DNA of 35,520 nt from Helicobacteraceae bacterium (GCA_027066325.1 JAMONY010000041.1:1-35520); one strand, 5' to 3'. Shown: positions 7,285-27,006, counted from the first letter of the stretch. The notes: generated by a model from the letters alone, not told the origin. Numbers and translations: made by a program.

Positions 7285-8235
7285 CTATAGAGTCTGATTT
7301 AGTATGTTGTTTTTTTGAAAAATTGATCTAAATAGATCTGTCTTAACAGTCTGTTGCATTGTCTTAAAGTGTCGCATATGGTGTGTATCACTTCCAACAA
7401 AATCTATCATGCCCTTATCTATAAGTATCTGTGCAAATCTTTTAACTTCTTCTGAATAGTACCCAGCAAGTGAGTTTATGTTAAGCTGAAACAATACACC
7501 TGCTCTCTTAAGACTCCTGTATCGCTCTATATCACCGATCATGTATAGGTACCGCTCAGGATGTGCCAAAACTGGTCTATACCCATGCTCTATCATAAAC
7601 TCTATCATAGAGTCCAGATTGATGGGTAGTGATGCATATGAGAGTTCAAAAAGCAGATAGTTATCTGCAAATGTCAATATATCTCTCTGCGCAATAAGCT
7701 CAATTAGATGATCATCTAAAAAGTACTCTGCAGATGCTTCTAACTCTATATTGATACGATTCTCTACTACTAGGTTATTGACAGCTCTAAGCTTAGCAAG
7801 GATAATTTTAGAGCTATTTGGATATCTGTGCGACATGATATGTGGAGTGACGATAAGCTTTGTATACCCTAGCTTCTCAAACTCTCTAATAATCGCTATG
7901 GACTCCTCTAAGCTATCTACACCATCATCTATATCTGGCATAAGATGTGAGTGAAGGTCTGTTTTGAGATACTCGCCAACTCTAACACCACCTATGCTTT
8001 TTGCTTTTTGTGTAGATATTTTTCTAAAGGCGTATAGGATCAGACCCATGCTCAATAAAGCAGCAATAATATACCATATACTACTCTGCTCATCACTCTC
8101 TTTGCTCCGTATAAATCGACTATTGTCTATGTTATTTTGGATAACAAAACTACTATTTGTATCTTGTATACTAGATCCAGATAAGCTAGCTAGCGATACA
8201 CACAAAATAGCAAAGATAGTAAAAATTAATCTCAA
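7285..8235 (-). CDS. CpsB/YwqE-family tyrosine-protein phosphatase, membrane-anchored
   Basis: PHP-fold, metal-dependent phosphotyrosine phosphatase expected to dephosphorylate the Wzc-type kinase encoded upstream. Catalytic motifs: DLHSH (93-97), VTPH (129-132), HPERY (225-229) and GSDTHH (281-286). Known CpsB/YwqE/Wzb-PHP proteins are soluble and about 240-255 residues. This one is 316 and adds an N-terminal hydrophobic signal-like segment (about 3-20), a short polar loop, and a transmembrane helix (about 53-70) followed by basic residues. That topology places the catalytic domain in the cytoplasm next to the kinase tail. The start is TTG, preceded by AGGGG, 20 bases after the wzc stop. Third gene of wza-wzc-cpsB. 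Confidence 0.88.
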   Translation of the reverse strand: MRLIFTIFAILCVSLASLSGSSIQDTNSSFVIQNNIDNSRFIRSKESDEQSSIWYIIAALLSMGLILYAFRKISTQKAKSIGGVRVGEYLKTDLHSHLMPDIDDGVDSLEESIAIIREFEKLGYTKLIVTPHIMSHRYPNSSKIILAKLRAVNNLVVENRINIELEASAEYFLDDHLIELIAQRDILTFADNYLLFELSYASLPINLDSMIEFMIEHGYRPVLAHPERYLYMIGDIERYRSLKRAGVLFQLNINSLAGYYSEEVKRFAQILIDKGMIDFVGSDTHHMRHFKTMQQTVKTDLFRSIFQKNNILNQTL

Positions 8236-8255
8236 TCTATACCCCTGTATTGACT

Positions 8256-10586: not shown

Positions 10587-11389
10587 TACCAATCTCCATT
10601 ATGTATAGTAGTGATCTGAGTAAATGGGTTTAAGATTGCTGATATAAGCTGCAAAAATGGCATTCTTTCACGAAATAGAACATTGGAGGCTTTGCTATCG
10701 CGAGCTGTTACAAAAACTATGTCGTTTGGTTGTAAGATAAGGCTAGAGTAGCGGATAGAGTTAAAATCTGTTAGATCCACTTCACGAATTTCGGGATTGC
10801 GCAAACTGCCGCGAATAATCTTGATATTTGTTCTCTTTGCATCAACCGTTAGGTCTCCCCTAGATGCTAGCGCCTCAAATAGCGTCATAGTTCCATTAGT
10901 AATCAGTGATACACCAGGCTCCCTAACCTCACCTAAGACAAAAAGTCTCTGGTTGATAATCTTTACTGAAACATAAGGATTTCTAAGGTACTTTCTATAC
11001 TCTTGCATCAATTTTTGAGCAGCTTCATTCTCTGTTAAACCAGCTATTTTGATGAGACCAACCAAAGGTAGGTGGACTACACCATCAGCTCCTATTAAGA
11101 TTCCTTCATCGCCAACCCTTTGAGTATAGCTATATTGACCACCTGTGCTCAAGAGTTGATTGAGTTGACCAGAACCTGTTGATGACTGATTAAAAGCGGT
11201 GATCTGAACACGATCTCCTTTTGAAATTTTCCACTCAAAAAGCGACTCATTGACATACTCTTCATCTGAGACCTTCTTGATCACCTTCTCCTCATTTACA
11301 TTGTTGCTAAATCGATTATAATCTTTAACCGAGCAACCAGATAAGATAAAAACCATAATCAGCAAACTAAAAATAGCTACTTTTTTCAT
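10586..11389 (-). CDS. wza: Wza-like polysaccharide export lipoprotein
   Basis: Outer-membrane polysaccharide export protein. The lipoprotein signal ends LSGC (Cys19). A Poly_export domain covers about 50-150 (WKISKGDRVQITAFN, then GADGVVHLPLVGLIKIAG), and an SLBB-type domain follows (FVLGEVREPGVSLITNGTMTLFEALASRGDL, about 155-190). At 267 residues it is much shorter than E. coli Wza (379). It has a single obvious SLBB domain and a hydrophobic C-terminal stretch (FLQLISAILNPF) that could form the membrane-spanning helix. First gene of the wza-wzc-cpsB unit, with its own promoter at 11430-11435 and GGAG before the ATG. Confidence 0.92.
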   Translation of the reverse strand: MKKVAIFSLLIMVFILSGCSVKDYNRFSNNVNEEKVIKKVSDEEYVNESLFEWKISKGDRVQITAFNQSSTGSGQLNQLLSTGGQYSYTQRVGDEGILIGADGVVHLPLVGLIKIAGLTENEAAQKLMQEYRKYLRNPYVSVKIINQRLFVLGEVREPGVSLITNGTMTLFEALASRGDLTVDAKRTNIKIIRGSLRNPEIREVDLTDFNSIRYSSLILQPNDIVFVTARDSKASNVLFRERMPFLQLISAILNPFTQITTIHNGDW

Positions 11390-11429
11390 TTTCTACTCCA
11401 TTGTAAACTTAAGATTTAATATAAGTGTG

Positions 11430-11435
11430 ATTATA
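11430..11435 (-). promoter_or_regulatory. -10 box of the wza-wzc-cpsB operon
   Basis: Perfect TATAAT on the minus strand (complement of 11430-11435). The predicted start is near 11423, giving a leader of about 34 nt that includes GGAG ahead of the wza ATG. No convincing -35 box is visible, which is common in Campylobacterota sigma70 promoters. It shares the 138-base gap 11390-11527 with the divergent wecA promoter. Confidence 0.55.
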
Positions 11436-11512
11436 CATTAATATAGATTAAGATCTACAACTAGCAAAAGTAGCATCCAAATTTGACCATAATCAATCTT
11501 TAACTAAAAAGA

Positions 11513-11528
11513 TGATACTATGCTTTTA
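11513..11528 (+). promoter_or_regulatory. Extended -10 promoter giving a leaderless wecA mRNA
   Basis: TG (11513-11514), A, then TACTAT (11516-11521). Counting the last T as -7 puts +1 at 11528, exactly the A of the wecA ATG. There is no purine-rich ribosome binding site between the box and the ATG (GCTTTT only). A leaderless transcript is the simplest reading. Confidence 0.5.
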
Positions 11529-12556
11529 TGAATTTAGCTCTATTGATAGTTGCGGCAGTAATCTCATTTGTTCTTATATCTATGCTTATAAAATTTGCCA
11601 ATAAACTAGGTCTTATCGATATCCCAAATCAGCGTAGTGCGCATACAGAGATTATGCCACGCGGTGCTGGTATTGGGTTTGTATTGGCTGTCATACTCAC
11701 CCCGATGATAATTGATTTTAACTTCTTCACAGAGTACTATTATGTATTTCTTGCGATTATTATAATCTTTATTGCTGGTGGACTAGATGATAAGTACAAT
11801 ATATCACCAAAGATAAAATTTATCTTTATCTTTACCGCAACACTAATGTTGTACATGCACGACATAGAGATAAGCTCCCTTGGTGATTATTTTGGCTTTG
11901 AGCTATTGATCCCATCTTTTCTTGTGCTTATATTTACCTTTTTTGCCATTGCTGGGTTTACAAATGCACTCAATCTCATGGATGGGCTAGATGGGCTTGC
12001 TGGCTCTGTATCGCTCATAATGTTTATCTCTTTTCTTGCCATAGGTCTAAATCACAATGATGCATTGATGATAAACCTATCGACCCTATACATAGGAGCA
12101 CTACTCTCATTTCTATTTTTCAACTGGAATCCAGCAAAAATTTTTATGGGTGATAGCGGCTCTTTAACACTAGGGTTCTCTATAGCACTACTTAGTGTGC
12201 AATCTCTAAACTATGTTGAGCCAACTGCTGTGCTGTTTCTATTGGCTCTACCTATTTTTGACACCTTTATAGTGATGCGTCGTCGTATCCAAAGAGGTCT
12301 GTCTCCATTTGATGCTGACAAAACACATCTACATCATCTTCTATATAAAGTCAAGCTAGATGTGAGATTTACTACTGTCATGTTGTTGTGTATGCAGACT
12401 ATATTTTCCATCATGGGGTATCAGATGCATAGTGCAAACAACACTTTAACTCTTATTCTTTTTGTACTATTTTTCTATATTTTTCTCAATCTTTTTGATG
12501 AGCGCCTGCGATATCGTAAAAAAGATAAAAATAGTGATACTAAAGATAAAACTTAG
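11528..12556 (+). CDS. WecA/MraY-family undecaprenyl-phosphate sugar-1-phosphate transferase
   Basis: Polytopic membrane enzyme that transfers a HexNAc-1-phosphate from a UDP-sugar to undecaprenyl phosphate, starting the lipid-linked repeat unit. 342 residues, mostly hydrophobic helices, with the family's cytoplasmic motifs: GGLDDK (85-90), NLMDGLDG (149-156), GDSGS (208-212) and THLHH (266-270). The HLHH motif favours WecA/WbpL-type polyprenyl transferases over MraY. It is the only initiating transferase in the window, so it most likely serves the neighbouring polysaccharide operon although it is on the opposite strand. Its stop overlaps the stop of the last operon gene by 4 bases. Confidence 0.92.
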   Translation: MNLALLIVAAVISFVLISMLIKFANKLGLIDIPNQRSAHTEIMPRGAGIGFVLAVILTPMIIDFNFFTEYYYVFLAIIIIFIAGGLDDKYNISPKIKFIFIFTATLMLYMHDIEISSLGDYFGFELLIPSFLVLIFTFFAIAGFTNALNLMDGLDGLAGSVSLIMFISFLAIGLNHNDALMINLSTLYIGALLSFLFFNWNPAKIFMGDSGSLTLGFSIALLSVQSLNYVEPTAVLFLLALPIFDTFIVMRRRIQRGLSPFDADKTHLHHLLYKVKLDVRFTTVMLLCMQTIFSIMGYQMHSANNTLTLILFVLFFYIFLNLFDERLRYRKKDKNSDTKDKT

Positions 12557-13662: not shown

Positions 13663-14741
13663 GAGTGTTTCAGCAATCTATCATATATAGATGATAACTT
13701 TGAGCAGTATATATCGTTGTTAAAGTTAGCACTAGCATACTCAACAAGTTCATCCGCATACTCATCTCTCTTAAGATCATCTAAGAACTCAACAATACGC
13801 TCAATCTCATCTATATCAAAAAAATTATCTATAAGTATGGCGCCTGATAGATCTTTTACTATTGCTGGTATACCTCCTACATTAGAGGCTATGATTGGTT
13901 TTGCACACATCATGGCCTCTATGATAGAGAGTGGCAGATCTTCTGTAAAAGATGAGATACAGTAGAGATCTATACGCTCATAAAAACTCTCCATCTGTGC
14001 TACAAATCCTAAAAATTGAACTCTATCTTGCACTCCTAGCTTCTGTGCATACATCTGAAGCGTCTGTAGCCATGTGCCATTGCCTGCAACTACAAGCTCA
14101 ACATCATACCCTCTCTTTAAGAGCTCAGAGATCATAAAGATGGCTCCTTCTATATTTTTTAGAGGTATCAATCTTGATGCTACACCTATGGTTAATGTTT
14201 GCCTCTTCTGTTGAGGAGTGTTAGTAGCTGGCTCTATATCAACAGAGTTAAACAGAAGTGTCATCTTCTTGCTATCATATCTCTCTCGCTGAAGACGCAA
14301 ATCATAGCTTTTTTGTGATACAACTAAAAATTGATCTGCTAGAGAAGATGTTGCTCGATCTAACCACAACTTAGGCTTAGATATCCAACTAGACATTCCA
14401 TGGTAGTGATTTACAACTCTGCTCTTAGGTAGTGAGAGCTTTAAAAATCTACTTAGCATATTTGCATTGTACATATGTGAATGTATGATATCTGGTCTAA
14501 AAGATCTTAAACTTTTTACAAATCTATATAGCTCTACTAGATTAACTACAGACTCTATATTGAAAATCTCCAACTCTATATCGCTATTTTTAAGCTGTGG
14601 TAGTAGTTGAGTTCTATTTTTAAGCACAAATAATTTCACTTCATAATCTTCACAATTTATGCCATTTAAGATATTGATCTGCTGTTTTTCAGCTCCACCT
14701 AGACTCAATGTTGGTATGATGTATGCTATCTTAGTTTTCAA
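13659..14741 (-). CDS. Glycosyltransferase family 4
   Basis: 360-residue GT-B retaining glycosyltransferase. An N-terminal IPTLSLGGAEKQQINIL loop is followed by the C-terminal donor domain with GVASRLIPLKN, VVAGNG, and the EX7E motif (E267 and E275 in EDLPLSIIE), then SNVGGIPAIV. It adds one sugar to the undecaprenyl-linked repeat unit; specificity unknown. The start overlaps the upstream CapK-like gene by 11 bases and the end overlaps the next gene by 4, so it is translationally coupled on both sides. Confidence 0.88.
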   Translation of the reverse strand: MKTKIAYIIPTLSLGGAEKQQINILNGINCEDYEVKLFVLKNRTQLLPQLKNSDIELEIFNIESVVNLVELYRFVKSLRSFRPDIIHSHMYNANMLSRFLKLSLPKSRVVNHYHGMSSWISKPKLWLDRATSSLADQFLVVSQKSYDLRLQRERYDSKKMTLLFNSVDIEPATNTPQQKRQTLTIGVASRLIPLKNIEGAIFMISELLKRGYDVELVVAGNGTWLQTLQMYAQKLGVQDRVQFLGFVAQMESFYERIDLYCISSFTEDLPLSIIEAMMCAKPIIASNVGGIPAIVKDLSGAILIDNFFDIDEIERIVEFLDDLKRDEYADELVEYASANFNNDIYCSKLSSIYDRLLKHS

Positions 14742-16092
14742 TGATCACTGCCTTCTTTTTGCCTCTTGAAGTTGCTACTAACTTCTCAACTTTTCTAACT
14801 TCTAGTTTATATTTGGTGCCTATCTTAGCCTCAAGAGCTTGTCTAAAACTACTAAACTTATCTATCTTGATGATATCTGTAGATAGATAGTTTAAAACCA
14901 CTTCTAATTTTTGATTGTTGAGTATAAGTTGTGACTCAAACACTTCTGTAGGCAGACACTTCAAGACAACTGAAAAGCGCGTTATATAGTTGCCATCAAC
15001 TGTCTGAAAGATATCTTCATCACGCCCTATAATCTCATCTAAGATTAGACCTCCACTACCACAACTACAAGATTGATCCTCAGATACAACACAAAGATCA
15101 CCAATCTCATAACGCACAAGTGGCATAAAATGGCTAGTTAGGCTTGTTACAACCATCCTACCCTCACTGCCTACACTAGCACCATCTCCATCACCATCTA
15201 ACACCTCAAGCAGACCTGTAGTGTCTGCAGTATGAAGTCTACCTTGAGTACAAGTAAATATAAAAATAGACTGCTCATTTGAGCCATAATAGTCAAAAAC
15301 TTTACATCCAAAGACTTTTTGAATCTGATCTCTTTGATAGTCATGAAGCTTTTCAGCTGTTGTAAACACATGCTTTACACACTCAATCTTATAGCCTCGC
15401 TCCTCAAAGAGTTTTGCTAGAAGATAGATTGCTGATGGATAACCCTCAAGCGCCTCAATCTTATGTGTCACAATTGCATCTAAATACTTCTGTACACTAT
15501 CTGGCGATATGTGAAAAGCGGAGAAGAAGTAGTGTTGGTTTATGTAGTCTTTTCTATATATAACCCTCTCATCACTTATATCATGTCCTGTAATACGACC
15601 CAATGGTTTAGATGGGTCATAGCCAAAATCCATCATGGTCTTCAAAAGTAGGTGAAAGCGGGATTGAAGATCTTGCACACTAACCTTAATCTTCATAGGT
15701 GAGCCGGTAGATCCGCTAGTGTGTAGAGTTCGACTATTGGCTTTTGTAATGAGAGATGAGTAGAACTGATCTGTTTGAGACTTTAGTACTTTTTTGCTTA
15801 ACAGAGGAAGTTTTGAAATATCATCCAAGCGGTCTAGACCACTATAGAGCTCTTTTTTATCCATGTAGTATGGGCTATGGTCTGTTATATCATCTAAAAA
15901 TAGATTTAACCTCTCAACTAAACTTTCTGGGCTATTGGGTACTACACTTTTTGAGATTTTTTTAGCTATCTTGCTCATAGGGTTAAGTAGTGGTATGTAG
16001 CCATATTTTTTATATAAAACAGCTATGTTTTCGATACTTATTAAGATATTTTGTACAACTAGTGGTGATTTTTTATATAGTTTTTTTAACAT
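14731..16092 (-). CDS. CapK/PaaK-like adenylate-forming enzyme
   Basis: 453 residues, similar to phenylacetate-CoA ligase and CapK proteins of capsule loci. The AMP-binding P-loop HTSGSTGSP is at 124-132. YYGSNEQ corresponds to the adenylate motif, and EIGDLC plus the Cys-rich CSCGSGG precede GRDED of the C-terminal domain. The family activates carboxylic acids as acyl-adenylates, so this protein may activate an organic acid for attachment to the polysaccharide. CapK-like proteins are common in capsule loci but their substrates are largely unknown. It begins 2 bases after the deacetylase stop. Confidence 0.82.
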   Translation of the reverse strand: MLKKLYKKSPLVVQNILISIENIAVLYKKYGYIPLLNPMSKIAKKISKSVVPNSPESLVERLNLFLDDITDHSPYYMDKKELYSGLDRLDDISKLPLLSKKVLKSQTDQFYSSLITKANSRTLHTSGSTGSPMKIKVSVQDLQSRFHLLLKTMMDFGYDPSKPLGRITGHDISDERVIYRKDYINQHYFFSAFHISPDSVQKYLDAIVTHKIEALEGYPSAIYLLAKLFEERGYKIECVKHVFTTAEKLHDYQRDQIQKVFGCKVFDYYGSNEQSIFIFTCTQGRLHTADTTGLLEVLDGDGDGASVGSEGRMVVTSLTSHFMPLVRYEIGDLCVVSEDQSCSCGSGGLILDEIIGRDEDIFQTVDGNYITRFSVVLKCLPTEVFESQLILNNQKLEVVLNYLSTDIIKIDKFSSFRQALEAKIGTKYKLEVRKVEKLVATSRGKKKAVIIEN

Positions 16093-16094
16093 AT

Positions 16095-17228
16095 CTATCT
16101 TATAGCCCGTCTAAGTTTTTTAATGCTATCTACTATAAATGAGATACTTTTATTGCCACTAGCACGCCATATTTGAAGTTGCAAAAACATAACATTTAGG
16201 TCTGATCTAATGATCTTTGGGGTAAACTCATGATAGGCTGCAACTCTTGATATTTTATGTCGTCTGCAGTTAAATTTATTGAGCTCTGAGCCTTTTGAGA
16301 TAAGCTTATAGCCAGACTCAAAGGCTAACTGTTCTACTCTCTCATTATTGCCACCACCAGGCCATACCAGATACTCAACCCTCTTGCCCAACACTCTCTC
16401 AAGGTAGTTGCGTGTACCAAGAAGCTCTTTTTTTAATCTCTCAAGAGATTCATCTTCACTCTCGTAAGATCCTAGTTTATTATCTGCGCGATAATCAGCA
16501 GCTATTTGCTTTTGTACCTCAAGATTTTCGTTGGCACTTTTTGATGGATTGTAACTATCTATACAAGAGCGTATAAACTCAACAGACGGCTTAAAAGCTC
16601 TTAGATTAGCAAGTGATTTCTCATTCTTAAATATAGGATAACCTAACGGTATTTGCTCTAAACTATCATTGGTAAGCCACTTAGCCTTCTGCTCTATATT
16701 GTCGTTCCAAAATAGCCAAGGTTCTATCTGAGTTCCATCATAAACATCAATAATTTCATCACTAACTGGATACCAAGTGTGTGTGTAGCCATGTGCTTGA
16801 ATATCAACCAAACCAGAGGACTCCATCTCTAAAAGCTCCTCTTCACAAAGATACCCCCACCACTCAGATAGATTCTCTTCAGTAGTTGCATCAACAAAAG
16901 GTCTGACTGGATGTCTCTGTATAAACTCTGGTGTCACAACAACACTAAACTTAAAGTTTAACTCTTTCATAATCTTAAAAACAACACTCCAGTTGTCTAA
17001 AAAGCCATCATCAAACTGAATCATGATACTTTTTTTAGGTAGCTGTTTTATGCCGTGCATATGCTCATACAACTCATCCCAATTGCAAGCATAATACCCT
17101 CGTTTAGCAAGATACCTCATCTGCTTAACAAAAGTCTCTATATCGCAAGTGAGAAAACTCCATGCTCTTGTTGTGTTATGGTCTGCTACGGAGTGGTAAT
17201 ATAGTACCGGTATCGCATCTGCATACAT
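16095..17228 (-). CDS. Polysaccharide deacetylase (NodB-like, CE4)
   Basis: 377 residues with NodB homology: IPVLYYHSV, the catalytic FDDG (72-75), the metal-binding HxxxH (H146 and H150 in HGYTH), and WPGG (289-292). Between the last two lies an insertion of roughly 130 residues, which makes the protein longer than a minimal NodB domain. There is no signal peptide, so it probably acts in the cytosol on a nucleotide sugar or lipid-linked intermediate and not on exported polymer. It removes N-acetyl (or O-acetyl) groups. It lies between the acyltransferase and CapK-like genes with 2-base gaps on each side. Confidence 0.85.
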   Translation of the reverse strand: MYADAIPVLYYHSVADHNTTRAWSFLTCDIETFVKQMRYLAKRGYYACNWDELYEHMHGIKQLPKKSIMIQFDDGFLDNWSVVFKIMKELNFKFSVVVTPEFIQRHPVRPFVDATTEENLSEWWGYLCEEELLEMESSGLVDIQAHGYTHTWYPVSDEIIDVYDGTQIEPWLFWNDNIEQKAKWLTNDSLEQIPLGYPIFKNEKSLANLRAFKPSVEFIRSCIDSYNPSKSANENLEVQKQIAADYRADNKLGSYESEDESLERLKKELLGTRNYLERVLGKRVEYLVWPGGGNNERVEQLAFESGYKLISKGSELNKFNCRRHKISRVAAYHEFTPKIIRSDLNVMFLQLQIWRASGNKSISFIVDSIKKLRRAIR

Positions 17229-17230
17229 GG

Positions 17231-17779
17231 CTATAACTCCTTGTCTAATATCTTATTAACATACCCATCTGCGCCATCTTGAGATACCACTTTTGCAGGC
17301 ACTCCAGCTACAACACTATTGTCTGGTATATCTATGTTTACAACTGCATTTGCACCTATGGCAACATTGGAGCCTATGTGGATTGATCCAAAAAGCTTGG
17401 CACCTGGTCCTATGTAGATATTGCTACCTAGTGTTGGGGAACCTTTTTTACTGCCTCGATTTGATCTACCGATAGTTACGCCTTGAGAGATATTGACATT
17501 ATCTCCTATCTTTACGCCACTACCTATGATAATTCCACCCCAGTGACCTATATAAAAACCTCTGCCTATAGATGTCTCAGAGTAGATCTCTATGCCATAC
17601 TTTATCATCTTCTGCTTTAGGATAAACTTCATCAATTTGTTATTGTACTTTTGAGACAATCGAAGCCACACGATATAGCTAAACCCTGGAACCAACAGGT
17701 ATGTTCTCAAAAATGACTTAAAACTGGTCTCTTCATTGTACCGATATAGATCATACTTTAAAATTTCACGCAATCTCAC
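17231..17779 (-). CDS. Serine-acetyltransferase-like hexapeptide acyltransferase
   Basis: 182 residues ending in left-handed beta-helix hexapeptide repeats: IGSGVKIGDNVNISQGVTIG, then IGPGAKLFGSIHIGSNVAIGANAVV and VAGVPAKVV. It resembles CysE/WcaB-type acetyltransferases, but where serine acetyltransferases have a catalytic Asp-His (DHGTG) this one reads GHWGG. The aspartate is missing. A sugar O- or N-acyltransferase acting on the polysaccharide is therefore more likely than cysteine synthesis. The gene overlaps the upstream glycosyltransferase by 14 bases. Confidence 0.82.
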   Translation of the reverse strand: MRLREILKYDLYRYNEETSFKSFLRTYLLVPGFSYIVWLRLSQKYNNKLMKFILKQKMIKYGIEIYSETSIGRGFYIGHWGGIIIGSGVKIGDNVNISQGVTIGRSNRGSKKGSPTLGSNIYIGPGAKLFGSIHIGSNVAIGANAVVNIDIPDNSVVAGVPAKVVSQDGADGYVNKILDKEL

Positions 17780-18863
17780 TTAACACCTCCTCAAACATAG
17801 TTTCATACTCTTTTATGATAAACTCTAAGTTGTATCTTTGAAATACACTCGCTCTAATCTGATCTGCATCTATCTGGTGATCTACATGTAGATCAATTGC
17901 GTCTCTTAATTTTGATACACTGTACGGCTCCACAAACCATCCATTCTCCGCCTCAATGACAATCTCCTCGATACCGCCAGGAGATTTAAATGCCACAACA
18001 GCAGTACCACATGCCATAGACTCTAATACGGTATTTGGAAAACCTTCAAACTTGGAGCTCAAAACCATCAGATCTGCATCTCTCATGTAGGGGTATGGAT
18101 TATCTTTAAACCCAAGCAGCTTGACTCTGCTTTGTAATTTTAGATTGTCAATCAAAGCCAAAAGCTCCTCTTGCTTTGACCCCTCACCAATAATAAAGAG
18201 TCTAATATCATCCCTTCTGCTTAGAGCAATAGCCTCAATAAGCAGATCATAACCCTTCACGGACTCTAAGCTACCTACGGCAACTATATTTTTCATATCA
18301 CGCGTAAGTGAGCTTTTTTGACCACTCAATTTTAACTCTATATTGTCAAAATCTATAGGGTTATTGATCACACGCATGAGATTTTTTTGAATTGAAAAAT
18401 TTTCATGAAGATCTTGCATCATATATCTAGACTGACACACAACTCGATCAAATTTTGGATACAGTCTCTTATATAGAGCATTAAAGATTGTTGGGTATCT
18501 CTCGTTTTTATTTAAGATACTTGGTATGCTAGCCTCTCTGGCTACAAATCTAACATCTCTTGGCATAAATATCTTAAACATCATAAGTAGTAGATTTAAA
18601 TGTCCAAGAGTAGAAAATACAATATCTGGCTTATGGGTATTGATAAGTTTTATCAGTGAGCCTATAGATCTACTCACTCTTGATTGTTTTAGATCTACTA
18701 TCTTAATATCGTCTCTTAAATCTTTCAGATACGATCCGCGTTTCTCAAGCAGCACCAGTGTGATATCAAAAAGAGTGTGATCTAGATTATTGGCAATTAT
18801 ACTAACAACACGCTCTGCGCCACCTCTATGTAGCGATGGAATAATTAAAAAAATCTTATGCAT
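17766..18863 (-). CDS. Glycosyltransferase family 4
   Basis: 365-residue GT-B enzyme. The N-terminal IIPSLHRGGAERVVSIIANNL is typical of GT4 enzymes of capsule and O-antigen loci. The C-terminal domain has AVGSLESVKGYDLLI, FIIGEGSKQEEL, and the EX7E motif (E273 and E281 in EGFPNTVLE), then KSPGGIEEIV. It adds one sugar of the repeat; donor unknown. It overlaps the polymerase gene by 8 bases and the acyltransferase gene by 14. Confidence 0.88.
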   Translation of the reverse strand: MHKIFLIIPSLHRGGAERVVSIIANNLDHTLFDITLVLLEKRGSYLKDLRDDIKIVDLKQSRVSRSIGSLIKLINTHKPDIVFSTLGHLNLLLMMFKIFMPRDVRFVAREASIPSILNKNERYPTIFNALYKRLYPKFDRVVCQSRYMMQDLHENFSIQKNLMRVINNPIDFDNIELKLSGQKSSLTRDMKNIVAVGSLESVKGYDLLIEAIALSRRDDIRLFIIGEGSKQEELLALIDNLKLQSRVKLLGFKDNPYPYMRDADLMVLSSKFEGFPNTVLESMACGTAVVAFKSPGGIEEIVIEAENGWFVEPYSVSKLRDAIDLHVDHQIDADQIRASVFQRYNLEFIIKEYETMFEEVLSEIA

Positions 18864-20079
18864 TTTTGTCTCCTAGTCCCACTTTATAAGAGTGCTCTTC
18901 AATGTAGATAGATATATACAACAAGACAAAAAGTATAACTTTTAAATTATAGGTCACAATGGCATTGTCCATAACTAAAAGTGCAAAAAGAAATATCTGC
19001 AATACCCTCTTCTGTGTGCTAGAGTGTACAGATCTAAGCTTAACATATGAGTAGATGAAGATCAGGTAGTACAACAACATGCCTATCAACCCAACACCAA
19101 CAATCAGCTCTATGTAGTTATTGTGCGCATAGTAACCCATGTCGTTATGTTTTGAAAATGTTGATATGCCAGTTCCAAGTAGCGGGTTTGCAAAAAAAGC
19201 CTCGATACCGCTTTGGATAAAATAGAGCCTATCTCCTGTGCTTCCACCCTCTACATTTTCACCAATAGCGCCCTCAAGCTCCATAAATCTATCTACAGTT
19301 CTATCTACCTTTTTTTGTAAAAACTGAGCATCTGAAAACTTGACTACCGCAACTGCAAAGAGTGCGCCAACAAGCAGAAGCTGCAAGATACTCTTGTAGT
19401 TTCGGACATGCTGGATCATAAAAAGAACTATAAGAAAGATGCCTATAATAATCCCTTTTTTAGAGACTGTTAAAAATATAACATACATAGCCAAAAAGAG
19501 ATTTAAGATTAAAAATACCTTAAAGACTCTATGTCTCACTTGATCCCACAGCATCATAGTAGCAAACATACTAAGTAGCATAACAATGGCCATACTACCA
19601 GAACGCGCCATAGTCCCTATGAACTGTAGCTGATTATAAAATGGGTTATAGATCTGAATAATGTCTAATGCTACAAGATAGTTATAAAAAGCTCCAGCTA
19701 TGATACCGTATAAAATATAGTTATTGATATTGAATTTCTTAATAAGATTATAGAGTATGATGATATTGATAGCATTTAAAAATACTGTTTTTGCCATACT
19801 TTTTGATAGCTCAAAGTCTATAGACCACAAAAGACTTAAAAATACAAAAAGTGTAAATAGCGAATAGAGCACCACATAGTAGTTTATCTTTAAAATTGAC
19901 TCTTTGTTGATTAGTAGATATAGTATAAAATATGACCACAACAAGATATTGATGCTATTGCTGATATAGATGTTGATTTTTAGTGGAAAAACAATCTGAG
20001 ATGCTATATAGATGGCCAAAAATAGACCTGCAATCTCATCTGAGAAAAGGGTTAATTTTCTAAGTTTAAGATGGCTCAT
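18856..20079 (-). CDS. O-antigen polymerase/ligase-like membrane protein (Wzy or WaaL type)
   Basis: 407 residues with about ten or more hydrophobic helices and a large periplasmic loop (about 245-320). This is the layout of Wzy_C superfamily proteins. The conserved loop-end motif GTGISTFSKHNDMGYYAHNNYIELIVGVGLIG is in the C-terminal third. Wzy polymerises lipid-linked repeat units at the periplasmic face, whereas WaaL ligates them to lipid A core. With wzx, wza and wzc in the same locus and no other polymerase candidate, Wzy is the better reading, but sequence alone does not separate them. Confidence 0.82.
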   Translation of the reverse strand: MSHLKLRKLTLFSDEIAGLFLAIYIASQIVFPLKINIYISNSINILLWSYFILYLLINKESILKINYYVVLYSLFTLFVFLSLLWSIDFELSKSMAKTVFLNAINIIILYNLIKKFNINNYILYGIIAGAFYNYLVALDIIQIYNPFYNQLQFIGTMARSGSMAIVMLLSMFATMMLWDQVRHRVFKVFLILNLFLAMYVIFLTVSKKGIIIGIFLIVLFMIQHVRNYKSILQLLLVGALFAVAVVKFSDAQFLQKKVDRTVDRFMELEGAIGENVEGGSTGDRLYFIQSGIEAFFANPLLGTGISTFSKHNDMGYYAHNNYIELIVGVGLIGMLLYYLIFIYSYVKLRSVHSSTQKRVLQIFLFALLVMDNAIVTYNLKVILFVLLYISIYIEEHSYKVGLGDKNA

Positions 20080-21109
20080 TCTCTGCTCTTAGATCATTAA
20101 TCAAATCTTCTATCATAAACATTGCTGGACATATTTTACTCTCTTGCCACTGCAAGTTGTTGCTCCAATAGCCTGTGCAGTTTAAAAATACAGAGTGAGT
20201 AAAAGCGTAGCTAATCTCTATAATCAATGGTTGGGAATTTGAGATAATAAAATCATATGCCACAGATTGGGATTGTAATTTTTTGCTTGTCTTAAAAGCT
20301 GTCTCAATGCACTGCATCGGTATACAGGCTGGGTCAAATATAAAGTTACCACTTCCAGATGCCCTAAAGTCTCCATCTCTAACCATTCTTTTAATAGCAA
20401 GGGCTCTATTGCCTATAATGACCACTCTGATATCACTATCGCTACCAGGAATAAAGTCTTGCGCATAGATATAGTTTTTATCTATTGGCATGTTTGCTAA
20501 CCTGCTATTTGGAATAATAATTCTGCCGATACTCTTTAGAAGGTTGATCAAACTTTGGACTGTTTTATCTCGCCTAACTTGCCACCAACGCTCTTTAAAA
20601 GTACTAAATCGATTTACCCCAAAACCTCTTCCAAATGCTCTTTTGATATATCTTAATGCACTACTTTTATCTCTTATAAGCCTGACATTAGATGCCCCTG
20701 CACCCCCACGCAGCTTATAGACCTTTGGATAATCTGTATTTTTTGCCCACTTTACAGCGGACTCTTTTGTATAAAAAACATAACTTTTAACCATGGGAGC
20801 TTCAATGGCTTCTAGTAGATACTTCTGCCCCACTTTATCATCAAAGTGCCAAACTGTTTTGGTATCTGGAAAAAGCTTTTTGCCTACAAGCTCCAAAGAG
20901 TAGGTGAGCTGTCTAGCAAATAGTATGGCTTTATGATCGTTATGGTGCCAATGCCACATCAGAGCATCACACTCTTTAAGCTCCTCCATGATGGTTGTAG
21001 AGTAGCAGTCAACAAGCTTATAATCGATACTATTGTCTTGGCAATACTCTATCCACACATCAGAAAAAGATCCTTTGTTATGAGCAATGGCAAGTTTAAA
21101 ATCTGTCAT
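20066..21109 (-). CDS. ATP-grasp (RimK-like) ligase-type protein of unknown substrate
   Basis: 347 residues. The central and C-terminal parts carry ATP-grasp features: KVYKLRGGAGASNVRLI (129-145; Lys and Gly-rich loop for ATP), QDFIPGSDSDIRVVIIG (217-233), the Gly-rich RASGSGNFIF (249-258), YDF (283-285) and EIS (298-300), which would supply Mg/ATP ligands. Such enzymes join a carboxylate to an amine through an acyl-phosphate. There is no signal peptide or transmembrane helix, so it is cytosolic. It is coupled to the CapA-like gene (ATGA overlap). I infer amide decoration of a uronic acid or an amino sugar; no named family member with known function is recognised. Confidence 0.72.
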   Translation of the reverse strand: MTDFKLAIAHNKGSFSDVWIEYCQDNSIDYKLVDCYSTTIMEELKECDALMWHWHHNDHKAILFARQLTYSLELVGKKLFPDTKTVWHFDDKVGQKYLLEAIEAPMVKSYVFYTKESAVKWAKNTDYPKVYKLRGGAGASNVRLIRDKSSALRYIKRAFGRGFGVNRFSTFKERWWQVRRDKTVQSLINLLKSIGRIIIPNSRLANMPIDKNYIYAQDFIPGSDSDIRVVIIGNRALAIKRMVRDGDFRASGSGNFIFDPACIPMQCIETAFKTSKKLQSQSVAYDFIISNSQPLIIEISYAFTHSVFLNCTGYWSNNLQWQESKICPAMFMIEDLINDLRAENEPS

Positions 21110-22080
21110 GCTTTAACCCCAAGCAGTCTTTTAACATGAGTCATATTGGGGACTCTAGGATTTTCCACAAACCTTCTAATCATGTTGATTTTACGCTGAC
21201 GAAGAACTCTTTTCTTATAACTCTGATCTGATGTAGGTATCCATTTTGGTATAACAAAATCTCTTTTTTTCACAACGCCATCTTGAAATTTAACAGTATA
21301 GTGCCCAACCTCTAAGTCACTAGTTAGTGTTACAACCATAGACTCTCTATTGCTTCTGCGCTGCTTTTTAACAAATCGTTTGGTAAACTTAGTGCCATCA
21401 TGCATGGAGCCCATATTGATATCTGGGAAAATAAAATTTCCTATGCCGTAGTATATATGTTTGTCTCTATAGATCTCATGGCTCTGTACAATATGAGCAT
21501 GATGACCCACAATCAAATCTGCTCCAGCATCGATGCAGCTATGTGCTATCTGGACATCACTATATTTTGGAAATGAGATCTCCTCATCACCCCAATGAAA
21601 CTGCAATACTACAAAATCTACACTATCACGAATAGCTCTAATGTCTTGAATAACGCTATCTAGATGTAGTTGCGCTATAGCAATATCATCAGATACAGCA
21701 GAGTGTGTACTTGGACAAACATAACCCAATATAGCAATTTTTTTCTCTCCTAGATGAAGCAGATATGGGTTATTGAGACAGCTATCTGTATCTCCAGCAC
21801 CAAAATAGCTGATATCTTCTGATTCAAGCAACTTTATCGTCTCTTTAAGAGCTTCTGATCCATAGTCTAAAGTATGGTTATTTGCCAAAGATACAGCTAT
21901 GGGATTATGAGAAAATGTCTCCTTTATGAACAGTCCATCACTACTCAAAATAACCTTATTGTGCGCTATGTCATCGCTACTTGAAGCTACATGTTCAAAA
22001 TTGAAGATAAACCTATCCATTGGCAAATCAACCTTACAGACTCTATCTAAAAAAACATCACCTAAAAAATCTACTCTCAT
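21106..22080 (-). CDS. CapA/PgsA-like metallophosphatase-fold protein
   Basis: 324 residues of the CapA (poly-gamma-glutamate biosynthesis) family, a calcineurin-like fold. Motifs: FLGDVFLDR (5-13), the NNH metal motif in LANNHTLDYG (65-74), QFHWGDE (160-166) and GHHAHIVQ (192-199), followed by YGIGNFIF. Unlike Gram-positive CapA it has no N-terminal membrane anchor, so it is likely cytosolic. There is no CapB or CapC partner here, which argues against polyglutamate synthesis. CapA proteins also occur in polysaccharide loci with undefined roles. ATG follows GGGAGG by 7 bases and abuts the stop of the previous gene. Confidence 0.82.
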   Translation of the reverse strand: MRVDFLGDVFLDRVCKVDLPMDRFIFNFEHVASSSDDIAHNKVILSSDGLFIKETFSHNPIAVSLANNHTLDYGSEALKETIKLLESEDISYFGAGDTDSCLNNPYLLHLGEKKIAILGYVCPSTHSAVSDDIAIAQLHLDSVIQDIRAIRDSVDFVVLQFHWGDEEISFPKYSDVQIAHSCIDAGADLIVGHHAHIVQSHEIYRDKHIYYGIGNFIFPDINMGSMHDGTKFTKRFVKKQRRSNRESMVVTLTSDLEVGHYTVKFQDGVVKKRDFVIPKWIPTSDQSYKKRVLRQRKINMIRRFVENPRVPNMTHVKRLLGVKA

Positions 22081-23370
22081 CTAAAAACCTCCCTCTATAA
22101 GCTTAGTTACACACGCTCTGTGCCAGTCTAGTTTGTGCATATCTGGCTGATAAGTATTGACAATATCACCACTTGCAACCTGCTGAATAAAACTAGATAT
22201 CTGCTCAAGCTCATCTGAGCTACAAGAGCGGACAAGTTCTGAGTCTATCTTTTGAAGCAGATCTCTTATTTCACTATCTTGTGGCGCTACATTGATCACT
22301 GGCTTATTGATGATAATATAGTCAAAGATTTTTGTTGTAACAATACCTCTAACACTCTCATCTTGTGAAATGATGTCATTATGTATCACCGATATCAATA
22401 GATCGGCTTGATATAGCGAAAGTAGTGCTGTTTTTTTAGGTACATTGCCATGAACCACTACTAAATGCTCTAAGTTATAGTTTTGAAAATTATCTATTGC
22501 CACATCACCTCTACTTCCAAAGTAGTGCACTCTAAGATTTTTACGCAGTTGTGGATCTAGTAGACAGATTGCTGCTGCTATTGAGGTTAAATCTCTACCT
22601 TCGTAGAGTGTTCCTGTATATACAAGGTTAAAAAAAGAGTTATCAATTCCTATATCTGCACTCAACGCATCACTCTCCAAGTTTACAATCTCATCAATAT
22701 ACTCTAGATCTGGTAAGTTATATAGAACATTGATCTGCTTAGTTGTTGTGTTTTCGCCCAGTTTTATCCTGCAACCATCAGATACGGTTGTAACAAGTGC
22801 TGCGCTATCCATAAACATCTTCTCAGCACACTTAATCATAAAATTTTGGATAAAATTTCTTCTACTATGTGGTTGAGCGTACCATAGATCTCTAAAATCA
22901 AGTACATAAGGTATCTTTTTTGATTTTGCGACCTTATATGTTGCATAAAATGATACAAATGGTGATCCAGAAGAGACAATAAGATCTATCTTACGCTCAT
23001 CTGTAATCTCTTGAAGTTTCCTTGTCAAATCTACAATCCAACCAATGCTATTATCAAACCCTAAACTAAATGCAACTCTTCCAACTGCCTTGAGTGCATA
23101 GGACTTAAAGCTGCCGCTACTCTTGTAGAGATAAAAAGTATCTTTAAGTCTATATCTAGTACGAATAACTTCAATATTGTGTCTCTGTATAAACTCCATA
23201 CGGCTATCATCAAAAAACTCTTGTTTGATATCGCTCTGATCGATAGTAACAACAATCACCTTCCAGCCCTCTTGTGAAAAACTGCGTGCTATCTTAGATA
23301 CACGCTCAACAGCAATCGCCTTAACAGGAGCAAACGCTCTAGCAACCAAGACTACAGTTTTAGCACACAT
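22081..23370 (-). CDS. Glycosyltransferase family 4 (WbuB-like)
   Basis: GT-B glycosyltransferase, about 429 residues. N-terminal VVLVARAFAPVKAIAVERVSKIARSF, then VSSGSPFVSFYATYKVAK and VLDFRDLWYAQP are typical of WbuB-like GT4 enzymes. The C-terminal domain has NLVYTGTLYEGRD and GIVTTKIFDYIIINKPVI, but the classical EX7E motif is not obvious. The start at ATG 23370 is preferred over the upstream in-frame TTG at 23388 because GGAG lies 5 bases before the ATG. Expected to add the second or later sugar of the repeat. Confidence 0.82.
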   Translation of the reverse strand: MCAKTVVLVARAFAPVKAIAVERVSKIARSFSQEGWKVIVVTIDQSDIKQEFFDDSRMEFIQRHNIEVIRTRYRLKDTFYLYKSSGSFKSYALKAVGRVAFSLGFDNSIGWIVDLTRKLQEITDERKIDLIVSSGSPFVSFYATYKVAKSKKIPYVLDFRDLWYAQPHSRRNFIQNFMIKCAEKMFMDSAALVTTVSDGCRIKLGENTTTKQINVLYNLPDLEYIDEIVNLESDALSADIGIDNSFFNLVYTGTLYEGRDLTSIAAAICLLDPQLRKNLRVHYFGSRGDVAIDNFQNYNLEHLVVVHGNVPKKTALLSLYQADLLISVIHNDIISQDESVRGIVTTKIFDYIIINKPVINVAPQDSEIRDLLQKIDSELVRSCSSDELEQISSFIQQVASGDIVNTYQPDMHKLDWHRACVTKLIEGGF

Positions 23371-23409
23371 CACTACTCCTAAGTACAAAGTTATACCACA
23401 TCATGATTC

Positions 23410-24669
23410 TCAACACTTACCTTTTGCATATCCATACGACAAGTATAGATAGATGATATAAAATATAGAAAAAACTCCAGAAAATAGTGCCAAAGCCACC
23501 GTGACACTATCTACTACATAACCAACCCACAAACTCAACCCAACACAGATAAGCAAGATACCCTGCCCTAACATGTTAGCTTTTTGCTTATTGAGAATAT
23601 AGAACATATAACTTAGCGGACTTGAGACAAAGCGTAGAAAAAACATTGGAATCAATATCTGTGTATAGACTCCCGCCTCACTCCAAGCCTCTCCAAAAAC
23701 AAATGAAAAAATCTCAGGAGCAAATACCAAAAGTATTACTGATGGAACAGTAGCAACCATCAACAACATCTTAAATGTTTTGACATATATATACCTGCAG
23801 TTACCATCACGATTAAAATCACTAGCTGCACGCTGTTTAAAAACGGTTGTAACAGAAGATGCCAATACAGTTATCGGAAGACCGACAATACGCCTTGATA
23901 ACACAAAAAGACCAACTACTGCGGGAGAAAATAGAAACCCAAGCATAAAAATAGGTAGCTGAAGAGAGAAGGTGTTTAAGAAGGCTGCTGGTATATCATA
24001 CTTTGGAAAGTTGACATGTCTGCTTAACTGCTCTTGCATCTTAGCTCTACTAATATCACTCCAGATAACTACTTTTCTATTGACTATGACAATATATAGA
24101 GTTGCAAAAAATTGGCTTACCACTTGGGCTATGATCAATCCAGATGATTGAAAACTCTTTACTCCCAACAGTATAGCAACAGAGGCTGTGGTTGTAGCTT
24201 GTGTTACTTTAGATATTGCTAAGTTTTTATACCGTTTGTGACGATTTGTCCAGTTGTAAAATATGTCATAAACCGCAACCAAAAAAACAGTTACAGGGAT
24301 CAAAAAAAGATACCGTCCTATATCTTGTAACTGATCTATGGTCATAAAGTATGTATAAAAGATCGATACAATCAACAAAATAGTTAAGCAAAAAAGTGAT
24401 GCTATCAGTAAAGATAGACCCAACACATTCAGTGCATCTCTATCTAGCTTTGGCAGAAGTATAGCCATGCTATACCTACCAGATGCCATTACAGAGAGCA
24501 CAATAACAATAGAAGAGAAGAGAGCAAATAGTCCAAAATCCTCTGGAGAATATAGCCGTGTCAAGATTGGACTTGCGGCTATTGGAATGGCTTGTGCTAA
24601 GGTTGTACCACTTAGCATAGTAGTTAAGTTACGAGCAAAATCTGACCTTAGCCTAAACCTACCGATCAC
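23410..24669 (-). CDS. wzx: Wzx-like polysaccharide flippase
   Basis: 419-residue polytopic protein of the MOP/polysaccharide-transport superfamily with about 12 hydrophobic helices. The N-terminal SGTTLAQAIPIAASPILTRLYSPEDFGLFAL is a typical Wzx opening. It flips the undecaprenyl-pyrophosphate-linked repeat unit to the periplasmic face for Wzy. The start is GTG with a strong GGAGG 7 bases upstream. It lies 16 bases from the epimerase gene and about 39 bases before the next ATG, the widest gap inside the operon. Confidence 0.88.
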   Translation of the reverse strand: MIGRFRLRSDFARNLTTMLSGTTLAQAIPIAASPILTRLYSPEDFGLFALFSSIVIVLSVMASGRYSMAILLPKLDRDALNVLGLSLLIASLFCLTILLIVSIFYTYFMTIDQLQDIGRYLFLIPVTVFLVAVYDIFYNWTNRHKRYKNLAISKVTQATTTASVAILLGVKSFQSSGLIIAQVVSQFFATLYIVIVNRKVVIWSDISRAKMQEQLSRHVNFPKYDIPAAFLNTFSLQLPIFMLGFLFSPAVVGLFVLSRRIVGLPITVLASSVTTVFKQRAASDFNRDGNCRYIYVKTFKMLLMVATVPSVILLVFAPEIFSFVFGEAWSEAGVYTQILIPMFFLRFVSSPLSYMFYILNKQKANMLGQGILLICVGLSLWVGYVVDSVTVALALFSGVFSIFYIIYLYLSYGYAKGKC

Positions 24670-24685: not shown

Positions 24686-25759
24686 TCATAATCTAGTGTT
24701 ATCTGTCTGTATTGATGCTTTTTGGCTCTGTTTACTTAAGTTTTGAATGTACCACTTAATAGACTCACTAAGTCCCCTATCTACATCATGAGTAGGTCTA
24801 TAGCCTACCACTGTTTTAAGTTTATCTATATTGGCATTGGAGTGTCGTATGTCACCTGCTCTAAACTCTCTATATATCGCTTTTTTGGCTACAAAACCAT
24901 CTAGATTCTCCTCTAGTTCTCGGTTTATAGAGCCATATAGATCGTTGAGTGTTAGCTGCCCGCCTATACCAGCGTTAAAAACCTCTGCAAAAGCCTTTTT
25001 ATTAGTTGTTGTGCCTGCTAAGATATTGGACTGTATAACATTGTCTATATAGGTAAAATCTCGACTTGTTTCACCATCACCATTGATATACACATCTTCT
25101 CCACCCATAAGCGCCCCAAGCCACTTAGGTATAACAGCTGCATAGGCTCCATTTGGATCTTGTCGTTTACCAAAAACATTAAAATATCTAAGACCTATGG
25201 GCTCCATACCATAGCACTTATGAAACACCCCTGCATAGAGCTCATTCACACGCTTAGTTACAGCATAAGGAGAGAGCAGATCTCCTACTCTCTCTTCTAC
25301 TTTTGGTAACTCTTGTGAGTCACCATAAACAGAGCTTGACGATGCATATACAAATCTTTTAACACCACTATCTTTTGCAGCCGTAAGCAAGTTTAAAAAG
25401 CCAGTCACATTTGATAAATTTGAGGTAACAGGATCATCAATAGACCTTGGAACTGACCCAAGAGCTGCTTGATGCAATATGATATCAACCCCTCTACAAG
25501 CCTTTAAGCAACTATTAAAATCTACAATATCACACTCTAAAAATGTAAAATTTTTAGCAGCATCAACACCAACCTGAAACAACATGTCATCAAGATTGCT
25601 TCTATAGCCTGTTGAGAAGTTATCAACTCCCACCACCAATTGGTTATGTCTTAATAAAAACTCTGCTAAATTTGAACCTATAAAACCAGCAACACCAGTA
25701 ACAAGCCACTTTCTCTGTGTAGTCTTAAAACTATCTATCACATCATCAAATGCGCTCAT
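24686..25759 (-). CDS. wbpP: UDP-GlcNAc 4-epimerase (WbpP/TviC-like)
   Basis: Extended short-chain dehydrogenase that interconverts UDP-GlcNAc/UDP-GalNAc and the corresponding uronic acids. NAD site TGVAGFIGS (21-29), a catalytic Ser run SSSS (140-143) and YxxxK (Y165 and K169). Long stretches agree with Pseudomonas aeruginosa WbpP as I remember it: VVGVDNFSTG, HQAALGSVPRSI, LRYFNVFGKRQDPNGAYAA and YINGDGETSRDF. At 357 residues it is slightly longer than WbpP. It overlaps the dehydrogenase stop by one base (TAATG), so the two are made together. Confidence 0.92.
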   Translation of the reverse strand: MSAFDDVIDSFKTTQRKWLVTGVAGFIGSNLAEFLLRHNQLVVGVDNFSTGYRSNLDDMLFQVGVDAAKNFTFLECDIVDFNSCLKACRGVDIILHQAALGSVPRSIDDPVTSNLSNVTGFLNLLTAAKDSGVKRFVYASSSSVYGDSQELPKVEERVGDLLSPYAVTKRVNELYAGVFHKCYGMEPIGLRYFNVFGKRQDPNGAYAAVIPKWLGALMGGEDVYINGDGETSRDFTYIDNVIQSNILAGTTTNKKAFAEVFNAGIGGQLTLNDLYGSINRELEENLDGFVAKKAIYREFRAGDIRHSNANIDKLKTVVGYRPTHDVDRGLSESIKWYIQNLSKQSQKASIQTDNTRL

Positions 25760-27006
25760 TATAACCTTCCATCTGCGCTATCAAGGATTGACTTAATATC
25801 GTAAATAACCTGATTGGAGTTGTCTAGTGTTAATGTTTTATATTTATCATGAGCTACTGCCAACACAATAGCATCATACTCCTCATAATTGACCTGACTT
25901 GTAAGCTCTAGATCATACTCTCGCCTAACCTCTTTAGCGTCCGCCCAGTAGTCGGCAATATCTACGCAACAGCCAAACTCTTGTAGCTCTCTGATCACAT
26001 CTATAACTCTAGAGTTCCTGATATCTGGACAATTCTCCTTAAAAGTAACACCCAAAATCAGCACCTTAGAGCCCTCTATCTTTTTAGACTTTTTGATCAT
26101 CAGTTTAATCACCTGATTTGCTACATAGATCCCCATGTTGTCATTGAGTCTACGACCTGCTAATATAATCTCAGGATTATAACCAGCCTCTTGAGCTTTG
26201 TGTGTAAGATAGTATGGATCAACTCCTATGCAGTGACCTCCAACAAGACCTGGTCTAAACGGCAAAAAGTTCCACTTAGTACCAGCTGCTTGCAATACAG
26301 CTTCTGTATCTATATTGAGTTTATTAAATATGATTGCCAGCTCATTAACAAAAGCTATATTGATATCACGCTGAGAGTTCTCGATCACTTTTGCTGCTTC
26401 TGCGACCTTTATAGATGGAGCTAGATGTGTACCAGCAGTGATAACCGATGCGTAAAGCTCATCTACAATCTCTCCTATCTTAGGTGTTGAACCAGCTGTA
26501 ACCTTAAGTATTTTAGTAACCGTATGCTCTTTATCACCTGGATTAATTCTCTCAGGAGAGTATCCACAAAAAAAGTCTTGATTAAACTTCAACCCAGATA
26601 CTCTCTCCAATATAGGCACACAATCCTCTTCAGTAGCGCCAGGATAAACAGTCGACTCATAGATAACAATATCATCTTTTTTTAGAACTTTTCCTATAGA
26701 TTCGCTAGCTTTTAGAAGCGGAGTGAGGTCTGGACGCTTATGCTCATCTATTGGGGTTGGTACAGTTACTATAAATATATTGCACTTAGCAATATCATCA
26801 AGCGTATTTGTAAATACCATGCCATGCTCCAAAGCCTCTTTGACTTGGGAGCTACTAAGCTCAAGTGTGCGATCAACACCATCTCTAAGTTCATCAATAC
26901 GCCACTGCGCTATATCAAAACCTACAACGCTATATTTGGCACTAAAAGCGTGTGCTAGAGGTAGACCTACATAGCCTAAGCCTATAATTGCTATTTTTTG
27001 ATTCAT
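25759..27006 (-). CDS. tviB: UDP-N-acetyl-hexosamine 6-dehydrogenase (TviB/WbpO-like)
   Basis: NAD-dependent nucleotide-sugar dehydrogenase oxidising the C6 hydroxyl of UDP-GlcNAc or UDP-GalNAc to a uronic acid. Rossmann loop GLGYVGLP (9-16), TVPTPI (81-86), ESTVYPG (117-123) and the catalytic cysteine C259 in [12 protein letters not shown]. It closely resembles Salmonella Vi-antigen TviB as recalled ([38 protein letters not shown]). 415 residues. With the epimerase it should supply UDP-GalNAcA. First gene of the 13-gene operon. An AGGAG is present, but about 13 bases before the ATG, which is long. Confidence 0.93.

Follow-up and report, generated by a model that had tools for sequence, protein, structure and literature searches.

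A recurrent CapA-like/ATP-grasp gene pair in a Wzx/Wzy operon of a Helicobacteraceae bacterium: a candidate amidation module for surface polysaccharides

Locus organization

The window analysed here is a 35,520-nucleotide stretch of DNA from a Helicobacteraceae bacterium (GCA_027066325.1, JAMONY010000041.1:1-35520), whose genome assembly comprises 1.69 Mb in 82 contigs. It harbors a Wzx/Wzy polysaccharide operon on the minus strand (27006 to 12553), in which a gene for a CapA-like protein of 324 amino acids (21106..22080, minus strand) directly precedes a gene for a RimK/ArgX-like ATP-grasp ligase of 347 amino acids (20066..21109, minus strand). The two genes overlap in an ATGA start/stop sequence (21106..21109, minus strand) indicative of translational coupling, and the same -4 nucleotide overlap is present in 12 other loci. 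This pairing is real and recurrent, and is apparently undescribed, as no description of CapA together with an ATP-grasp protein in polysaccharide loci was found in the open-licence literature. The operon is arranged in the order tviB, tviC-like, wzx, a glycosyltransferase family 4 (GT4) gene, CapA-like, ATP-grasp, wzy, GT4, an EpsC/CysE-like acetyltransferase gene, a PgaB-like deacetylase gene, a PaaK-like ligase gene, and two further GT4 genes.

Predicted folds and active sites

The ATP-grasp protein matches the RimK family (PF08443, 29.6 bits; cut-off, 21) and contains the motifs KLRGGAGASN (residues 132-141), DSDIRVV (including D226 and R228) and EIS (residues 298-300). Its AlphaFold2 model (mean predicted local distance difference test score (pLDDT), 94.2) matches ArgX best in the PDB (3vpb, E=2.3e-15), and also RimK and LysX, enzymes in which a carboxylate is activated by ATP and then joined to an amino acid. 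Residues K92, K132, Q217, D286 and E298 are invariant in 74 homologues. Assignment to the RimK family of alpha-L-glutamate ligases was rejected (TIGR00768, 48.5 bits against a cut-off of 143.4; Ser in place of Asn in the ExN motif), and the TupA-like family (PF14305), to which Cj1438C belongs, is absent from the Pfam matches at E<=0.01. The genome encodes one ATP-grasp protein of this kind. Based on this homology, formation of an amide or peptide bond by the ATP-grasp protein is likely, and the protein is predicted to be a carboxylate-amine ligase.

The CapA-like protein belongs to the PGA_cap family (PF09587, E=8.9e-49, 166.7 bits; cut-off, 27) and carries NNH (residues 67-69) and GHHAH (residues 192-196) motifs. 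It has no transmembrane segment, its 19-residue hydropathy maximum being 0.80 compared with 2.46 for Wzy of the window; lacking a membrane anchor, it is therefore predicted to act in the cytosol. Its AlphaFold2 model (mean pLDDT, 79.4) has a calcineurin-like metalloenzyme fold and is nearest, among PDB structures, to MslH, an epimerase acting on a lasso peptide (8gq9, E=2.7e-14), followed by 5'-nucleotidases and the phosphodiesterase YmdB, so that both models match the expected folds. The calcineurin-like metal and catalytic residues D8, E29, N68, H69, D72, H162, H194 and H196 are invariant across 24 CapA homologues. In MslH, the metal is bound by Glu44, Asn87, His259 and His261, with His88/Asp91 and His295/Asp11 as catalytic dyads, whereas the site of YmdB comprises Asp8, Glu39, Asn40, Asn67, His150, His175, His177, His68 and Asp71 (PMC10406935). 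All of the invariant CapA residues except H194 are counterparts of MslH and YmdB site residues; H194 aligns with the YmdB metal ligand His175, at a position occupied by Gly293 in MslH, whereas MslH His261 has no conserved CapA counterpart (an invariant G164 and a variable residue 165). Judged by residue conservation, the site leans towards a hydrolase site over the MslH type, although not decisively. The CapA-like protein was rejected as an MslH orthologue, since it lacks the His261 counterpart and scores 53.7 bits against an equivalog cut-off of 700 (NF038314). To our knowledge, what CapA does in capsule synthesis has not been settled biochemically.

The CapA proteins paired with this ATP-grasp family fall into two types. 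The window protein and those of L015 (55% identical) and L013 (47%) form the 324-residue type, while the other type, of about 376 residues with a conserved C-terminal CESHRD-like motif, is 19-25% identical to the window protein.

The possibility that the CapA-like protein is part of a hidden polyglutamate system was also considered and rejected. As the earlier note had it, CapB and CapC are missing: the window genes that were scanned include no CapB-type Mur ligase, and a PF14102 search for CapC gave no match in the genome but succeeded with B. subtilis as a control. The domain labelled 'CpsB_CapC' (7285-8235) belongs to the CpsB-type family, and its CapC is a name collision.

Distribution of the gene pair

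When 84,980 species genomes were scanned with the ATP-grasp alignment, 225 relatives emerged; the 80 best loci were retained and, together with loci from whole genomes, gave 82 non-duplicate loci. They span about a dozen phyla, including Bacteroidota, Campylobacterota, Pseudomonadota, Chlorobiota, Ignavibacteriota, Balneolota, Spirochaetota, Thermodesulfobacteriota, Planctomycetota, Acidobacteriota and Cloacimonadota. The gene directly 5' of the ATP-grasp gene is most commonly CapA (18 of 82 loci; the overlap is exactly 4 nucleotides in 13 of these), followed by an AsnB-type asparagine synthase/glutamine amidotransferase (11) and DUF362 (8). Among the relatives that have the CapA pair are the laboratory-grown Salinimicrobium marinum KCTC 12719 (L069) and Arachidicoccus ginsenosidivorans (L079). 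Directly downstream, the commonest genes encode a GT4 glycosyltransferase (36 loci) and Wzy (11); GT4 genes of the type found at 17766..18863 in the window occupy this position in 36 loci and lie within about 9 kb of the ATP-grasp gene in 74 of 82.

Of these loci, 44 are fully flanked, with at least 8.5 kb on either side of the ATP-grasp gene. CapA is present in 16 of the 44, but in none of 11 control loci (Fisher p=0.023), which were picked via a relative of the window GT4 (17766-18863), lack the ATP-grasp gene and form a small set (nine Bacteroidota, two Campylobacterota); the CapA profile used was derived from CapA proteins of ATP-grasp loci. The view of the two genes as a module, put forward in the earlier note, thus gains from both the adjacency and this comparison. 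An obligate partnership was rejected, since 28 of the 44 loci are without CapA. In a tree of 73 ATP-grasp proteins, CapA presence changes at least 20 times, with at least nine changes forced by starred branches, and its clustering is not significantly above that of shuffled labels; the pair has therefore been made or broken many times.

The association was also examined from the side of CapA. Among 249 sampled Campylobacterota genomes, only the window's own of the 30 CapA-like loci fetched adjoins an ATP-grasp gene, and pairing as a general habit of CapA was rejected because the other 29 adjoin none. In the reverse test, 296 Bacteroidota genomes contained just ten CapA proteins at E<=1e-60, indicating that such proteins are rare. 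Six of these ten (G456, G713, G736, G671, G536 and G535) have an ATP-grasp gene no more than three genes away, two of the six with an AsnB-like gene in between; one, G456, contributed a sequence to the search profile.

Several other recurrent neighbors were observed. A triad of CapA, AsnB-like and ATP-grasp genes occurs in constant order in several loci, mostly of Bacteroidota (L086:6881-11029, L146:8459-12525, L150:5724-9631). DUF362 genes, for which we know of no role in polysaccharide synthesis, occur in L077 (8629-9984) and nine other loci, including the eight in which they lie directly 5' of the ATP-grasp gene. In six Campylobacterota loci (L010:10530-11441, L012:7869-8774, L020, L025, L027 and L036), a gene for a ThiF/E1-like protein adjoins the ATP-grasp gene, usually divergently, with a metallo-beta-lactamase-fold gene beside it in four of the six. 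The ThiF/E1-like proteins of L010 and L012 are 70% identical, and among the 249 Campylobacterota genomes such a protein was found only in G078, which carries the ATP-grasp gene. L023 contains four tandem ATP-grasp genes of the window family between Wzx and Wzy (7906-12084), mutually 54-62% identical and with intact catalytic residues, possibly corresponding to four successive ligations.

Operon context and the uronate link

The genes upstream of the pair, all on the minus strand, begin with a TviB-type UDP-GlcNAc 6-dehydrogenase (25759..27006; NF011729, 611.6 bits, NCBIfam equivalog cut-off 592), a source of N-acetyl-hexosaminuronate, and a TviC-like UDP-GlcNAcA 4-epimerase (24686..25759), for which NF011728 is the best match at 413.7 bits, below its cut-off of 760. 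This agrees with the earlier assignment of a uronic acid sugar nucleotide, UDP-N-acetylgalactosaminuronic acid (UDP-GalNAcA), as a product of the operon. They are followed by a Wzx flippase (23410..24669; PF13440) and a GT4 glycosyltransferase (22081..23388; PF13439) that abuts the CapA gene. Downstream, also on the minus strand, lie a Wzy polymerase (18856..20079; PF04932), whose start overlaps the ATP-grasp gene by 14 nucleotides, a GT4 glycosyltransferase (17766..18863; PF00534), a PgaB-like polysaccharide deacetylase (16095..17228; PF01522, with a weak TIGR03938 match) and a PaaK-like AMP-forming acyl ligase (14731..16092; weak PF00501, NF045666 121 bits), a possible second acyl- or amide-forming enzyme of the operon. 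A WecA-like gene on the plus strand and genes for Wza, Wzc and CpsB come after the operon. A search of a plasmid collection gave no match. The window also encodes an 821-residue protein of RCC1-like repeats in a bacterium (32695-35160, minus strand; PF25390, E=6.8e-265).

The special tie to uronate genes that had been proposed for the pair did not hold at the level of the locus. UDP-sugar dehydrogenases are present in 16 of 44 fully flanked ATP-grasp loci and in 4 of 11 controls, and their presence is independent of that of CapA in the 44 loci (p=0.52). The ATP-grasp family is in fact regularly found without either partner (19 of 44 loci), which the earlier note had named as telling against its proposal; yet a UDP-sugar dehydrogenase is encoded somewhere in all 25 genomes examined. 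A uronate-specific association was therefore rejected for the locus but not for the genome, and the acceptor may be a uronate everywhere. A module acting on GalNAcA fits the window but is no general rule.

Proposed function and alternatives

Collectively, the families and predicted folds of the two proteins, their conserved active sites and the recurrence of the pair form the basis for a functional proposal, in which the pair would be a module that amidates a Wzx/Wzy surface polysaccharide, probably by adding an amine or an amino acid to its sugar chain. The ATP-grasp protein would use ATP to phosphorylate a carboxylate; in the window operon, the most likely candidate is that at C6 of the N-acetylhexosaminuronic acid supplied by TviB/TviC, on a cytosolic lipid-linked intermediate. 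The same enzyme would then couple the activated carboxylate to an amino group donated by a small amine or an amino acid, whose identity context and analogy alone suggest. The CapA-like protein, encoded on the same transcript and with coupled translation, would process the resulting amide ahead of its use by the next glycosyltransferase or by Wzx/Wzy, the leading guess for this step being removal of a phosphate. In its broad form, an amidoligase with a product-processing CapA acting on a polysaccharide precursor, this is our preferred reading, with a probability that we place slightly below even; a uronate acceptor in the window operon, suggested by context and analogy, has about an even chance. 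A phosphatase role for CapA is more tentative, its main ground being the analogy with Campylobacter jejuni described below. These likelihoods are judgements and were not computed.

Several observations weigh against this proposal. The position of the third magnesium ligand, Asn of ExN in classical ATP-grasp enzymes, is occupied by Ser300 in the window protein and by Ser in 71 of 74 homologues. The lack of CapA in most fully flanked loci indicates that it is not needed for the ATP-grasp reaction, and because dehydrogenases are not enriched, the pointers to uronate are limited to the content of the window operon itself. The operon revealed no pathway for a phosphorylated amine, and the YmdB metal ligand Asn40 has no conserved equivalent in CapA, so that a phosphatase site with two metals is uncertain. 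Four of the 11 control loci (L154, L156, L162 and L164) are not clearly polysaccharide loci; with the seven remaining controls only, CapA is found in 0 of 7 (one-sided p ~0.06) and the dehydrogenase in 4 of 7.

Other functions for the pair were weighed against the amidation proposal. The ATP-grasp protein may add an L-amino acid to a sugar carboxylate or short peptide, with the CapA-like protein then epimerizing this residue at its alpha carbon to give the D form, comparable to the action of MslH on the C-terminal Trp of a lasso peptide. MslH indeed tops the PDB matches of the CapA-like protein in both sequence and fold, and seven of its eight metal and catalytic residues (PMC10406935) are identical in all 24 CapA homologues. 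However, the residues common to both are general residues of the calcineurin-like fold, the equivalog score falls far short, and the differences at His261 and at H194, invariant in CapA and absent in MslH, lie within the site itself, which together render epimerization unlikely. It is no more credible that the acceptor is not a uronate, in which case the ATP-grasp protein would acylate an amino sugar freed by the deacetylase of the operon, or make an amino-acid acyl donor, with TviB/TviC being incidental. The absence of dehydrogenase enrichment and its independence of CapA accord with such an acceptor, as do the polysaccharide-deacetylase-like genes present in 16 of 44 loci and in the window (16095-17228), whereas the dehydrogenases in every genome examined, the activation of acceptor carboxylates by the relatives ArgX, RimK and LysX, and the AsnB-type amidation genes that also fill the slot adjoining the ATP-grasp gene speak against it. 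The least probable of these alternatives is a peptide or polyamino-acid side chain, in which an oligopeptide would be assembled on the sugar by successive ATP-grasp ligases, with CapA handling the chain as in poly-gamma-glutamate synthesis. Adjacent tandem ATP-grasp genes in 5 of 82 loci, with four in a row in L023, and the membership of the CapA-like protein in the PGA_cap family are consistent with it, but the window's genome has a single such ATP-grasp protein and no CapC, and the window offers no CapB and a CapA without an anchor.

Extended beyond the window, the amidation proposal would describe a widespread, mobile surface-polysaccharide amidation module, in which a CapA-family metalloenzyme serves as the dedicated product processor (phosphatase or epimerase) of a RimK-like amidoligase; we advance this wider form only tentatively. 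If true, it would assign a defined reaction in polysaccharide synthesis to a member of the CapA family, point to similar chemistry for the CapA of polyglutamate synthesis, and extend the known chemistry of capsule amidation past C. jejuni. The recurrence in many phyla of CapA beside a single, defined amide-bond enzyme makes the CapA reaction directly testable on small proteins of the cytosol, and at the sequence level the pair may flag bacteria of unknown surface chemistry whose polysaccharides carry amide decorations.

Comparison with known systems

The window ATP-grasp protein shares its fold and core residues with RimK, ArgX and LysX, which act on protein acceptors (ribosomal S6, LysW); its family differs from them by a helical insert (approximately residues 165-205) and the motif GDFRASGSG, and from RimK, which retains Asn in ExN, by Ser300. 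MslH is the best fold and sequence match of the CapA-like protein and has most active-site residues in common with it, but possesses a one-metal site including His261, absent from CapA, and acts on a ribosomal peptide. Poly-gamma-glutamate synthase shares the PGA_cap domain, but its CapA/PgsA has an N-terminal membrane anchor and operates with CapB and CapC; the CapA-like protein has no such anchor, and CapB is missing from the window and CapC from the genome.

The closest functional precedent is the C. jejuni HS:2 capsule. There, Cj1438 uses its TupA-like ATP-grasp domain to amidate glucuronic acid at the C6 carboxylate, the amine being either serinol-phosphate or ethanolamine-phosphate; Cj1435, a HAD phosphatase, takes off the phosphate, and the glycosyltransferase that acts next requires an amidated acceptor sugar (PMC11800379). 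Linked peptide ligases, including ATP-grasp enzymes, in operons for teichuronopeptides and O-antigen have also been mentioned in general terms (PMC4431377). The general idea is thus precedented, and the role that the earlier note did not know to be described has been described in outline in C. jejuni, although the protein families and the CapA partner are different. In both systems, a polysaccharide locus that contains glycosyltransferase genes also encodes an ATP-grasp amide ligase (predicted for the window), and a second enzyme finishes, or in the window would finish, the amide on the growing polysaccharide. The layout of ligase, possible phosphatase and next glycosyltransferase is similar, whereas in C. 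jejuni the ligase forms part of a fusion protein, as a TupA-like domain attached to a GT2 glycosyltransferase, and is partnered by a HAD phosphatase, and the predicted window ligase is a free-standing RimK/ArgX-like protein partnered by a CapA-like protein.

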